A model generated the notes under the pieces. The model had not been told where the DNA came from. It made no database searches and saw nothing but the letters and a program-made list of their open reading frames with translations. Position numbers and translations under genes: made by a program. Shown here one piece after another: positions 1 to 4,529 of a stretch of 5,500 bases of DNA. Source of the DNA: Deltaproteobacteria bacterium (lineage in GTDB: Bacteria; Desulfobacterota_B; Binatia; UBA9968); contig JAUXIP010000166.1 in the NCBI GenBank assembly GCA_030620935.1, positions 1-5,500 of the forward strand. The letters are read 5' to 3'. The number at the start of each line of letters is the position of its first letter. Position 1 is the stretch's first letter.

Positions 1-1153
1 CCATCACCGGGGTTAGAATTCCCTTGAGAACCGCCAACGTTAATGAAGAGACGTCATATTGAGTCACCTCACCGCCGTATTCGATGTGCACTTCTTTGGG
101 GACCGTCGCCAGCATCTGCACCTGTAAGCTTCCCAGCTTTTCGCACAATGTAAGATAAGGTCTGAGCGTTTCGAGCAGTTCGGGACTGACGGAAGGCACG
201 TTTACGGCATACCGAATGATGCTGTGGGCAAGATAATCGACCATTTGTTCCGCCACGGCGACCGCCACGTTGAGCTGGGCCTCGTCGGTGGATGCGCCCA
301 GGTGAGGGGTCGTGATCACTTGCTCCATCTGGAGCAGCGGGTGGTTGGGCGGAGGAGGCTCTTCGACAAAGACATCCAAGGCTGCCCCCGCCACTTTCCC
401 TTCGCGGAGGGCCTGCGCCAGATCCTTTTCATCTATGATGCCCCCGCGGGCGCAGTTGATGATGCGCACCCCCTTTTTCATCTTTTTGAAGTCGCTCCGA
501 CTGATAAGGCCGCGGGTCTCATTGGTCAACGGCACGTGGATCGTAATGAAGTCGGAGCGCGCGAAAATTTCATCGAGAGTGACGAATGCCACGCCGAGCT
601 TGGCGGCGTTTTCCGGCGGCACGAAGGGATCATTCCCGATGACCTTCATGCGTAGTCCCTGGGCCCGTTCGGCGACGATCCGGCCGACGTTTCCCAGACC
701 GATGATCCCGAGCGTCTTATTGCACAACTCCACGCCCATGAACTTGTTGCGCTTCCACTGGCCGGATTTCAGCGAGGCGACCGCCTGAGGAATATGACGG
801 GCCAGCGCCATCATGAGGGAGATCGTGTGCTCGCCGGTCGTCACGTTGTTTCCTCCCGGTGTGTTCATGACGACGATGCCCTTTTTGCTCGCAGCCGCGA
901 CATCGATATTCTCCACGCCGATCCCGGCCCTGCCGATCGCTTTTAGGTTTTCAGCGGATTCGAGAATGTCCGCCGTTACTTTGGTGCCGCTGCGGAGTAC
1001 CCACCCGTGGTAATCTCCGAGGATCTTTTTTAGCCCGTCCGGTTTGAGCCCAGGCCGCTCGTCGACTACGAATCCGTCCGCATTCTGAAAAATCTCAAGC
1101 CCCTGAGGGGCGAGGGGATCGGTTACAAGGATTTTTGTTTTTTGTTTTGCCAC
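1..1153 (-). CDS. serA: D-3-phosphoglycerate dehydrogenase, 3' end outside window
   Basis: Cytosolic NAD-dependent enzyme oxidising 3-phosphoglycerate to 3-phosphohydroxypyruvate, the first step of serine synthesis. I translated the minus strand by eye from a GTG at 1153 (GTG-GCA-AAA-CAA), which gives 384 uninterrupted residues to the window edge. Visible motifs are the Rossmann loop G152-LGNV-G157, D175 at the end of the next strand (NAD ribose contact), the catalytic set R236 (CARGG), E265 (DVFVEEP) and H284 (TPHLGAST), and an N-terminal substrate region with AGIGVENID near residue 76. Sequence continues past residue 320 as NVPSVSPELLETLRPYL and beyond, the intervening (ASB) domain of the long-form enzyme, so an ACT domain probably follows off the left edge. 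The start lies 4 nt after the stop of the aminotransferase, implying translation coupling; no in-frame ATG precedes it and the Shine-Dalgarno is weak. Family assignment is secure. Confidence 0.96.
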   Translation of the reverse strand, partial: MAKQKTKILVTDPLAPQGLEIFQNADGFVVDERPGLKPDGLKKILGDYHGWVLRSGTKVTADILESAENLKAIGRAGIGVENIDVAAASKKGIVVMNTPGGNNVTTGEHTISLMMALARHIPQAVASLKSGQWKRNKFMGVELCNKTLGIIGLGNVGRIVAERAQGLRMKVIGNDPFVPPENAAKLGVAFVTLDEIFARSDFITIHVPLTNETRGLISRSDFKKMKKGVRIINCARGGIIDEKDLAQALREGKVAGAALDVFVEEPPPPNHPLLQMEQVITTPHLGASTDEAQLNVAVAVAEQMVDYLAHSIIRYAVNVPSVSPELLETLRPYLTLCEKLGSLQVQMLATVPKEVHIEYGGEVTQYDVSSLTLAVLKGILTPVM

Positions 1154-2300: not shown

Positions 2301-2326
2301 TTCTAAAAACCCCTAGATTCTTACCT

Positions 2327-2513
2327 TTTAAATGTTGAACAGAACCACTTCAACAAACTTTATCGCGCCAAGACGCCAAGAGCGCAAAGAAAAAAATGCC
2401 TTTCTATCTCTCCGAACTTGGCGTCCTTTGCGTCTTTGCGCGAGCCATAGTTTTTCCGACTCGGCAATCCAAAAGCTGAAATAGGAGACGCCTAAAACTC
2501 TGTTCACTTTAAA
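2327..2513. repeat. 187-bp element with imperfect terminal inverted repeats
   Basis: The outer arms TTTAAATGTTGAACAGA (2327-2343) and the complement of 2499-2513 (TTTAAAGTGAACAGA) match with a two-base gap. They enclose a second, longer inverted repeat (2364-2442). The whole sits between the riboswitch terminator and the aminotransferase start. Nested inverted repeats without a credible gene resemble a MITE or other non-autonomous intergenic repeat. No clear target-site duplication is visible, so insertion is inferred from form only. A 74-codon open frame crosses it but looks like a by-product of the repeat. Confidence 0.5.
2364..2442. repeat. 26-bp imperfect inverted repeat (CGCCAAGA/CGCAAAG type)
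   Basis: Left arm 2364-2389 and right arm 2417-2442 pair at 21 of 26 positions around a 27-nt loop. The left arm is itself a near-tandem of 8-mers (CGCCAAGA, CGCCAAGA, GCGCAAAG). I recall that intergenic palindromes built from CGCAAAG/CGCCAAG units recur in many environmental bacterial genomes. In the minus-strand transcript it would form a long hairpin in the leader of the aminotransferase-serA operon. No T-run directly follows on that strand, so it is not a standard terminator. Confidence 0.65.
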
Positions 2514-2520
2514 TAACCGG

Positions 2521-2547
2521 TGCAGCGTGCAGTTTATGTGCGCTGCA
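2521..2547. repeat. short palindrome TGCAGCG...CGCTGCA
   Basis: Seven-bp perfect arms (2521-2527 and 2541-2547) around a 13-nt centre, placed directly beyond the terminator T-run on the minus strand. It could be a small RNA hairpin in the read-through leader or a protein site. Function unknown. Confidence 0.4.
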
Positions 2548-2553
2548 GGCAAT

Positions 2554-2592
2554 AAAAAAGCCTGAACCTCTTTTGATGTAAGAGACCCAGGC
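2554..2592 (-). terminator. intrinsic terminator forming the riboswitch expression platform
   Basis: On the minus strand GCCTGGGTCTCTT (2592-2580) pairs over 13 positions with AAGAGGTTCAGGC (2572-2560). Three of the pairs are G-U wobbles; the loop is 7 nt and TTTTTT follows (2559-2554). The 5' arm begins inside the conserved CGCCTGGG of the aptamer, so ligand-stabilised folding of that segment would compete with the terminator and allow read-through into the aminotransferase-serA operon. This is the classic layout of a transcriptional ON switch. The hairpin and U-tract are seen directly; the competition is inferred. Confidence 0.85.
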
Positions 2593-2657
2593 GTTCGGCC
2601 GTCTTGATGTTTTGCACTCCCTCGTGGTCGATTCCACGCAGACGCCAGTCGCGCAAA
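2584..2657 (-). promoter_or_regulatory. ZTP (pfl-motif) riboswitch aptamer
   Basis: On the minus strand the leader carries the pfl-motif hallmarks in order. P1 is TTTGC (2657-2653) with GCAAA (2615-2611). The conserved GACTGGCG follows at 2650-2643. P2 is CGTGG/CCACG (2638-2634 and 2627-2623) with loop AATCGA. GAGGGAGT closes the first domain (2623-2616), then a short linker leads to GGCCGAACGCCTGGG (2600-2586). GGCG at 2646-2643 can form the expected pseudoknot with CGCC at 2593-2590. The class binds ZTP/ZMP (AICAR phosphates) and senses low 10-formyl-THF. The one visible departure from the remembered consensus is GAGGGAGT where GGGGAGT is usual. It begins close to the predicted transcription start and overlaps a terminator, as expected for a working switch. 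The assignment rests on motif recall, not a covariance-model search. Confidence 0.85.
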
Positions 2658-2666
2658 CCGGTATTT

Positions 2667-2812: not shown

Positions 2813-3508
2813 ATGGAAAAAATCGTTCTCTTTGATATTGACGGAACACTCACCCGCTCCCATAACGGCTTCATCCCTTTCAACGAGGCCATTCAAAATA
2901 CTTTTGGAGTTCCCGGTGATATTCGCACCATCACTCCTGACGGTAACACCGACCCTCTGATCCTCGAAGAGATCCTTGCCGCGTCTCATCCCGAAGTAGA
3001 GATCACCGAAGAGAGGTGGCAGAGCTTTGCCGGAAACCTCCGGAAAAGTTATCACCATGCCATCCGAGAAGAGCTTACCGAAATAACCCCACTCCCTGGA
3101 GTCCTAGACCTCGTTAAGGAATTGACAAAAGTGGAAGGACTTTATCAGGGGGTCGTTACTGGAAACCTAAAGGTGATAGCCCAATTGAAACTTGAAGCCG
3201 CAGGCCTAAGTCCATACCTAAGCCTAGGGGCTTATGGAAGTGATTCCCGGTATCGCAAAGACTTGCCGGGAATTGCCAGAAACAGGTGGGAGAAGGAGTT
3301 GGGGAGATCCATCATGCCGGATCAATGTGTCATTATCGGAGATACCCCTAAAGATCTGGATGCAGCGAGAGAGAATCAAATGAGGTGCGTCTTGGTCGGC
3401 ACCGGGAAATACTCGCTGGAAAAGCTGGCATCATTCGAGCCGGACGCCTGCTTGTCTGATTTTACAAATACGAGGTCTGCTGTTGAGAGTCTACTGAAAC
3501 TGTTCTGA
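2813..3508 (+). CDS. HAD-superfamily hydrolase, phosphoglycolate phosphatase-like
   Basis: A 231-residue soluble phosphatase of the haloacid dehalogenase superfamily, normal length for the phosphoglycolate phosphatase/beta-phosphoglucomutase-like group. Motif I is DIDGT with nucleophile D8 and acid/base D10; motif II is T116 in VVTGN; K149 (YRKD) is the likely motif III basic residue; motif IV is GDTPKD with Mg-binding D177 and D181. Residues ~14-95 form a helical cap. The ATG at 2813 directly follows a TAA in another frame, and the Shine-Dalgarno is poor (GAGCAGG lies too far upstream). It heads a probable two-gene operon with the aldo/keto reductase and is divergent from the serine operon. 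Phosphoglycolate is an attractive substrate because the divergent aminotransferase may use glyoxylate, but HAD specificity cannot be read from these motifs. Confidence 0.9.
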   Translation: MEKIVLFDIDGTLTRSHNGFIPFNEAIQNTFGVPGDIRTITPDGNTDPLILEEILAASHPEVEITEERWQSFAGNLRKSYHHAIREELTEITPLPGVLDLVKELTKVEGLYQGVVTGNLKVIAQLKLEAAGLSPYLSLGAYGSDSRYRKDLPGIARNRWEKELGRSIMPDQCVIIGDTPKDLDAARENQMRCVLVGTGKYSLEKLASFEPDACLSDFTNTRSAVESLLKLF

Positions 3509-3524
3509 CTTCAAAGAGGTCAAC

Positions 3525-4529
3525 ATGCAATATCGGACACTTGGTAAAACAGGTCTGAGACTTTCCGAGATTGGCTTCGGTTGCGGCGCCAATGCCGTCC
3601 TCATGGTCCGTGCCAGTTACGAGGAACAACTAAAGGCGGTGCGCCATGCCTTGGATTCGGGCATCAATTATTTTGATACGGCCTTTGCTTATGGGTCAGG
3701 AAAGTCCGAAGAGAATTTGGGAAAGATTCTAAACGAGCTGAGCTCTTCGGTCGTCGTCTCGACGAAGATCCGGCTTGAGCCCGAGGACATGGCCAACATT
3801 AAATCTGCGACCGTTCAAGCTGTAGAGGCGGGACTCGAGCGTCTCAAGAGAGACTCAGTCAATCTGATTCAGTTGCACAACAGGATTACGGTCGAGAGAA
3901 GTCTGGGCAGGCGATTCAGCGTGACATCAAGGGACGTTATTGGACCCGGAGGGGTCGTCGACGGTTTTAAAGAACTTCGGGACAGAGGCAAAGTCGGCTA
4001 CTTCGGTTTCAGTGGATTAGGTGATCCGAAGGCCTTGCATGAGGTTATCGATAGCGGCGAATTCCATTCAGTCCAGGCTTATTACAATCTCCTCAACCCC
4101 AGCGCCGGGCAGCCTGTGCCAAAAGATTTTGGCGCTCTCGATTACGGCCGCCTCATTGATCGAGCTGCAGGCAAGGGGATGGGAGTCGCTGTTATTCGCG
4201 TGTTGGCAGCAGGCGCGCTTACCGCGACTCCTGAGGCTGGAGGCGGCAGCAGCCCGGAGCCGATGTCGCTCGGCTCCGACTATTCCCTGGATGTGGAGCG
4301 CGCTAACAAGGTCAAATCCATAATCGTCGGCGAGGATGAAAGTCTTACTCAAGCCGCCATCCGTTTTGCTCTGATGAAGCCTGAGGTCTCGACCGTCCTT
4401 GTCGGCTTCTCCAACACCTCCCACATCGACGAAGCGGTTGCTTGCCCCGGCGGCGGGGGGTTATCGGATGAGGCAGTGGCAGGTTTAAGAAAGCTTTGGG
4501 ACACAGATTTTGGAAAGATCAACCGCTAA
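3525..4529 (+). CDS. aldo/keto reductase
   Basis: A 334-residue NAD(P)H-dependent oxidoreductase with the (beta/alpha)8 barrel of the AKR superfamily, full length. Seen: N-terminal YRTLGKTGLRLSEIGFGCG (residues 3-21), the catalytic tetrad D51 (YFDTAFAYG), Y56, K81 (VSTKIR) and H118 (IQLHNR), the YGSGKSEENLG segment after the tyrosine, GYFGFSGLG near 158-166, and C-terminal VLVGFSNTSHIDEAV (291-305), the cofactor-binding region. Start supported by AAGAGG 5-6 nt before the ATG; it follows the HAD gene by 16 nt, so co-transcription is likely. Substrate unknown; such enzymes reduce varied aldehydes and ketones. The stop codon ends one base before an integron attC site, which marks the border between core genes and the cassette region. 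Confidence 0.94.
   Translation: MQYRTLGKTGLRLSEIGFGCGANAVLMVRASYEEQLKAVRHALDSGINYFDTAFAYGSGKSEENLGKILNELSSSVVVSTKIRLEPEDMANIKSATVQAVEAGLERLKRDSVNLIQLHNRITVERSLGRRFSVTSRDVIGPGGVVDGFKELRDRGKVGYFGFSGLGDPKALHEVIDSGEFHSVQAYYNLLNPSAGQPVPKDFGALDYGRLIDRAAGKGMGVAVIRVLAAGALTATPEAGGGSSPEPMSLGSDYSLDVERANKVKSIIVGEDESLTQAAIRFALMKPEVSTVLVGFSNTSHIDEAVACPGGGGLSDEAVAGLRKLWDTDFGKINR

Follow-up and report, generated by a model that had tools for sequence, protein, structure and literature searches.

According to the excerpts of the published descriptions consulted here, ZMP/ZTP (pfl) riboswitches (RF01750) control purH, fhs, pfl, glyA, folD and metH (PMC2864571) as well as moeA (PMC9481103), with glyA named also in PMC10882993. 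The same excerpts describe terminators that overlap pfl RNAs and an ON direction of switching (PMC2864571), and report that in C. metallidurans pfl-glyA-lacZ is raised by trimethoprim (PMC10882993). RNA control of serine synthesis has likewise been described, i.e. by a glycine riboswitch and a T-box(Ser) ahead of serC, serA and serS and by the serC motif RNA (excerpts of PMC9481103 and PMC7266159); these systems lack a ZTP aptamer and involve other RNA classes and other signals.

The locus analysed here shares with the known ZMP/ZTP riboswitch the aptamer core, P1-P3, the pseudoknot and an overlapping terminator of the ON type, and a known target, glyA, is also the second target in the class of its relatives; it differs in that the main target is an aminotransferase-serA-purA operon. 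As a ZTP target, serA is not named in the excerpts of PMC2864571, PMC7266159, PMC9481103, PMC10882993 and PMC13273304 that were checked, a set that did not extend to Kim et al. 2015, the paper likeliest to list it. In a literature search, co-mentions of the ZTP riboswitch and serA belonged, in the excerpts checked, to other contexts or to a bead name (in those of PMC9609401, to blood sera), and no title among the matches listed concerned the two together, which does not imply that such a paper is absent.

Sequence and predicted structure of the riboswitch

The window (the whole stretch of 5500 bases that was analysed) was compared with 4227 Rfam families by cmscan, and the sole match above its gathering score was to RF01750, over the full length of the model (positions 1-86; Table 1). 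The match lies in the 5' leader of the aminotransferase and serA genes and on their strand. It encloses the interval 2584-2657 of the minus strand in which the earlier note had recognised a ZTP riboswitch from its core motifs, and the Infernal comparison proposed there was significant. P1, P2 and the GGCG/CGCC pseudoknot, which had been described as pairable, all pair in the RF01750 alignment, as does P3; in P1 and P3 three pairs, situated towards the open end of the helix, are non-standard.

Table 1. Features of the window and the evidence for each
Feature	Position	Strand	Evidence and remarks
ZMP/ZTP riboswitch aptamer (RF01750)	2578..2662	-	cmscan 55.2 bits, gathering score 39, E 2.6e-7
Pseudoknot 5' strand GGCG	2643..2646	-	Sequence and RF01750 alignment; pairs invariant in 42/42 aligned sequences
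Pseudoknot 3' strand CGCC	2590..2593	-	Pairs with GGCG 2646-2643; 3/4 bases common to terminator stem
Intrinsic terminator, 13-bp stem, 7-nt loop, T6	2554..2592 (stem-loop 2592-2560)	-	Terminator scan, minimum-energy structure, dG -15.1 kcal/mol
Remainder of leader up to aminotransferase start	2301..2553	-	Contains imperfect inverted repeat, 2372-2425 (2366-2450 in the wider delimitation)
Class-V aminotransferase, AGT/serine-glyoxylate type, 380 aa	1158..2300	-	Pfam PF00266; presumed phosphoserine aminotransferase
serA, 3-phosphoglycerate dehydrogenase	2..1153, runs off window edge	-	TIGR01327, PF19304

In an alignment of 42 sequences, 89.1% of the cells of the aptamer pairing are paired, compared with 33.7-48.9% in slid controls. 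By helix, the share is 100% for the pseudoknot and for apical P2, 84.3% for P3 and 83.7% for P1 together with the lower P2 pairs. Both sides have changed in 8 of the 25 pairs, a number reached by 2 of 500 shuffles, and the covariation score exceeds all 500; further pair types number 18, no more than in shuffles (mean 20.8). This pairing and covariation, together with the same position of the aptamer in all five closest relatives (see below), place the aptamer beyond chance. Judged by its sequence, the RNA is an ordinary, canonical ZTP riboswitch, the presumed ligand of which is ZMP or ZTP.

The earlier account was right about the core motifs; it did not mention the terminator, and purA lies beyond the window on which it was based. 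The 5' arm of the terminator starts at the second base of CGCCTGGG and takes up the 3' strand that closes the pseudoknot and P3, so that aptamer and terminator are mutually exclusive and the pseudoknot strand common to both couples the expression platform to the aptamer. A simple scan of positions 1100-2900 found four terminator-like sites against 3.0 expected by chance, and the one overlapping the aptamer has the longest stem. Its pairing is retained in 93.4% of cells across the 42 sequences (slid controls, 25.3-68.7%); covariation of the terminator helix in the same alignment does not exceed that in shuffles, as expected for a helix of which the 5' arm is already fixed by the aptamer. The minimum-energy fold of the leader shows the terminator state, with an energy that is unexceptional compared with shuffles (z -0.27).

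When 60 loci were scanned, i.e. 58 aminotransferase-led relatives, the window and one locus at a contig end, a terminator with dG below -10 that starts within 2 nt of the start of CGCCTGGG was detected in 50, the window included. Among the 10 loci in which the scan detected no overlapping terminator, the same terminator is apparent by eye in three (L093, L103 and L104). The other seven (L113, L117, L123, L124, L131, L137 and L138) have no detected T-run after a hairpin, and in these the aminotransferase match begins 23-58 nt past the aptamer; they may use translational control of the same operon. The layout in which the terminator overlaps the aptamer is, as far as sequence can indicate, the anatomy of an ON switch.

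From the end of the aptamer to the aminotransferase ATG there are 277 nt in the window, and 23-193 nt separate the aptamer from the start of the aminotransferase match in 58 relatives. The description of the aptamer as lying directly ahead of the operon is accordingly correct as to strand and order but loose as to distance. The inverted repeat in this part of the window leader has no copy among the 329 loci compared, and a search of the minus strand between 1100 and 2900 revealed no promoter of the sigma-70 type.

The riboswitch and its operon in related genomes

Scanning genome contigs with the aminotransferase gave 53 loci, 17 of which were passed to cmscan. In the five closest relatives (L001-L005; aminotransferase 77-80% identical) a ZTP aptamer lies ahead of the gene in the same place and is the only ZTP match in each genome; the other 12 loci examined by cmscan have no ZTP aptamer ahead of the gene. 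In a survey of the class of one relative, in which draft genomes were searched with stricter Infernal filters that lose weak matches, 63 of 148 genomes had ZTP matches (68 in total, 67 above the gathering score). For all 68, up to 5 kb downstream was read. The first gene is the aminotransferase in 58, the relation that the earlier note had proposed looking for, serA in one and glyA in seven; two have no readable target, one at a contig end and one behind a match below the gathering score. Curated cut-offs were passed by three of the proteins, namely a PurA, a GlyA and the long GlyA of one genome; the others were recognised by tblastn. This long GlyA, encoded behind the ZTP riboswitch at L094 (genome G070), is a variant of glycine hydroxymethyltransferase that scores 819 vs 735 bits with NF010094.

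The aminotransferase, serA and purA follow the riboswitch in this order at 49 of the 68 loci, and at seven more the aminotransferase and serA are present on a contig too short for purA, which in one case breaks off at the first codons of PurA. Two loci have the aminotransferase alone: at L087 the contig ends inside the gene, and at L116 there is no serA in the 310 nt that remain on the contig past it. In one genome, G069, the riboswitch leads serA and purA, and the aminotransferase is lacking; at its locus (L114) the apparent first codons of the aminotransferase are kept between riboswitch and serA and are followed by an in-frame stop. In total, serA itself is present behind 57 of the 68 matches. 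The earlier note was right as to the class and strand of the riboswitch and as to serA as its target, and the link to a true serA is widely conserved. What had been called a serine-synthesis operon is confirmed as far as aminotransferase and serA go but is incomplete: in relatives the operon is aminotransferase-serA-purA, and purA would be expected behind serA in the genome of the window as well, so that the transcript probably also carries a purine gene, a type of gene that ZTP riboswitches classically control. In 54 of the 63 genomes with ZTP matches, counted with strict filters in drafts, no ZTP match besides this switch was found, and it is therefore probably the main ZTP response of this class.

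The operon also exists without the switch. All 42 of the 85 ZTP-negative class genomes that were searched with the aminotransferase gave a match. Among the best 30 loci taken from them serA comes next in 30, purA follows serA in 18 of 20 stretches (the other two end first), and nothing exceeded an Rfam threshold in the 20 of the 30 loci that were scanned; one of the 30, L280, has about 90 nt upstream, too little to count as ZTP-negative. Control by the riboswitch is thus not obligatory for this operon. In a quick tree of the aminotransferase in which L280 was counted as negative, the presence of ZTP in 59 rows of this class takes 5 changes (mean with shuffled labels, 38.3), of which starred branches force at least two.

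This gene order raises the question of which gene the riboswitch serves. The switch might act for purA, with serA and the aminotransferase carried along as older operon mates: purine genes are classical ZTP targets (excerpt of PMC2864571), purA stands behind serA at the 49 aminotransferase-led loci and the serA-led one, and its linkage is independent of the switch, as the ZTP-negative stretches demonstrate. Because the genes share one operon, sequence does not separate this account from one based on serine. Against it, none of the 68 class matches stands directly ahead of purA, the other target of the class is glyA, a serine/one-carbon gene, and in G069 serA has become the first gene. With serA first in the genome that has lost the aminotransferase, and with glyA as the alternative target, a serine/one-carbon logic is favoured over purA alone, and we consider it rather unlikely that purA is the sole object of control. 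The regulon in this class reads as serine supply, serine cleavage and AMP synthesis. The earlier proposal was sound with respect to serine supply and incomplete in that it lacked glyA as a second target in this class and AMP synthesis via purA.

Enzymes encoded by the operon

Although truncated by the window edge, the serA product scores 504.5 bits with TIGR01327 (cut-off 454); it carries the PGDH intervening domain (PGDH_inter, PF19304) and falls below the cut-off for glyoxylate reductase (238.6 vs 455). The aminotransferase shares the Aminotran_5 domain with the AGT/serine-glyoxylate/BhcA group of class-V enzymes and has BhcA (L-aspartate-glyoxylate aminotransferase) as its best NCBIfam model; it differs from the group in that it does not reach the cut-off of any NCBIfam model among the matches listed, BhcA included (331.5 bits vs 650). 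Its scores with SerC models are far lower (NF003764, 31.7 vs 253; TIGR01366, 31.7 vs 401.65; TIGR01364, 30.3 vs 443.6; NF002841, 26.9 vs 477), and its best match of solved structure is 6pk1, a serine-glyoxylate aminotransferase. A search of whole genomes for SerC with NF003764 alone gave no match over the cut-off in 20 genomes from the class of the relatives, 18 of which had weak matches; among 14 control genomes, four passed. As none of the 20 passed, phosphoserine is probably made by another enzyme, and we infer that the class-V aminotransferase replaces SerC, with phosphoserine synthesis as its presumed reaction.

The match to 6pk1 would suit a methylotrophic serine cycle, in which the two proteins would be serine-glyoxylate aminotransferase and hydroxypyruvate reductase rather than enzymes of serine synthesis, and serine-cycle genes are reported in all Binatota genomes studied (excerpt of PMC8262859), the group to which the window lineage is suspected to belong. 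The serine-cycle reading is quite improbable in view of a dehydrogenase that passes the phosphoglycerate dehydrogenase cut-off, fails that for glyoxylate reductase and has the PGDH intervening domain, and of the 20 class genomes in which the SerC model NF003764 does not pass, so that phosphoserine probably comes from another enzyme.

Divergent from the operon, the window encodes a HAD-family hydrolase and an aldo/keto reductase as a pair (2813-4529, plus strand); among 32 distinct loci searched, relatives of the hydrolase are encoded close to the riboswitch in 7 and relatives of the reductase in 11. The HAD protein is a possible candidate for phosphoserine phosphatase, and no curated model over its cut-off backs this candidate.

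Proposed mechanism

Combining the aptamer, the terminator and the gene order, we suggest, with a probability of about 0.85, that the leader contains a canonical ZMP/ZTP transcriptional ON switch for the aminotransferase-serA-purA operon. According to this proposal, (i) in the absence of ligand the strand CGCCUGGG would be drawn into the terminator and transcription would halt ahead of the aminotransferase gene, (ii) a shortage of 10-formyl-THF would stall PurH, and ZMP/ZTP would rise, and (iii) at high ZMP/ZTP the pseudoknot and P3 would be held, the terminator blocked and the operon transcribed, presumably through purA. SerA and the aminotransferase, acting in the place of SerC, would then yield phosphoserine, to be dephosphorylated to the serine from which GlyA would charge THF, and PurA would commit IMP to AMP.

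Serine is a source of one-carbon units. The entry of carbon into serine would in this way be tied to a shortage of 10-formyl-THF, as the earlier note had put it, and an answer to one-carbon shortage that consists of more serine synthesis together with purA appears to be the most economical account of the locus. That the aptamer is no longer regulatory here or is a relic match, for which the long leader (277 nt) and the 85 of 148 class genomes that have no ZTP match might speak, is very improbable with core, pseudoknot and terminator intact in the window and kept in relatives. The ON switch for the operon provides a conserved and testable case in which a sensor of 10-formyl-THF shortage would stand over the first enzyme of serine synthesis and a purine gene.

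Targets in a second class and in other phyla

Among 158 genomes drawn from the phylum, nine had ZTP matches, and three of these nine belong to the class described above. By eye, the targets are Fhs-like in G207 and G241 and permease-like in G187; in G264, from another class, the order is ZTP-aminotransferase-serA-hisZ-purA (locus L158). The class of G264 has ZTP matches in 47 of 63 genomes, 102 in total and up to five per genome, of which 95 from 45 genomes were classified by the first recognised gene. The targets are monomeric isocitrate dehydrogenase (33), RnfC (28), the aminotransferase (19, in 18 genomes), SucC (4), PntA-like (2) and one each of Kup-like, NADP-Icd-like and ATP-citrate-lyase-like; the remaining six lack a reference gene, five having an exchanger-like protein and one a contig end. 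At L155, L161 and L163, the three loci where the sequence read extended far enough, ATP-citrate-lyase-like genes follow isocitrate dehydrogenase. For RnfC, monomeric Icd, SucC, HisZ and PurA one example each passed a curated cut-off, the citrate-lyase-like protein and the exchanger were assigned from Pfam on one example each, and PntA, Kup, Fhs and NADP-Icd are what we take these proteins to be from their sequences. At the 19 aminotransferase loci, most of them read for 1.5-3 kb, serA is present in 16, hisZ in two and purA in one (L158). The overlapping terminator is found at all 19 and at 88 of the 95 matches.

These targets (loci L155, L160-L163 and L190-L279) suggest that the ZTP regulon of the second class is unusually wide and extends into central carbon and energy metabolism. 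The alarmone might govern carbon entry at large in part of the phylum, beyond the purine and folate genes, covering serine synthesis and purA in both classes and isocitrate dehydrogenase, succinyl-CoA ligase, Rnf, transhydrogenase-like proteins and ion transporters in the second; we regard this as possible, though short of probable. If true, ZTP would act as a signal of one-carbon shortage for central carbon and energy metabolism.

No ZTP match was found in 11 genomes in which the aminotransferase is more distantly related; they include Myxococcota, Leptospirillum, Ignavibacteriae, Nostoc, Kiloniellales and one archaeal record. When the phylum of a Myxococcota genome was surveyed, 195 genomes gave one match, with a target that is GlyA-like by eye. 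That of a Kiloniellales genome, presumably Pseudomonadota, had 22 matches in 20 of 299 genomes, 20 of them over the cut-off. According to tblastn, ten of these lead glyA; by eye, six lead purH-like genes and one a folD-like gene, and five have other targets. Neither serA nor the aminotransferase nor purA gave a match within the 1.5 kb read behind the 22. Within this sample, which covers the phylum of the two classes, the phyla of the Myxococcota and Kiloniellales genomes and the 11 genomes with a more distant aminotransferase, the serA target is characteristic of lineages of the phylum to which the two classes belong.

The two classes differ in the pseudoknot. In a simple motif scan GGCG/CGCC is present in 65 of 69 sequences of the first class, the window included, and GACG/CGTC in 93 of 95 of the second; as read from these motifs, the difference is a compensated change.
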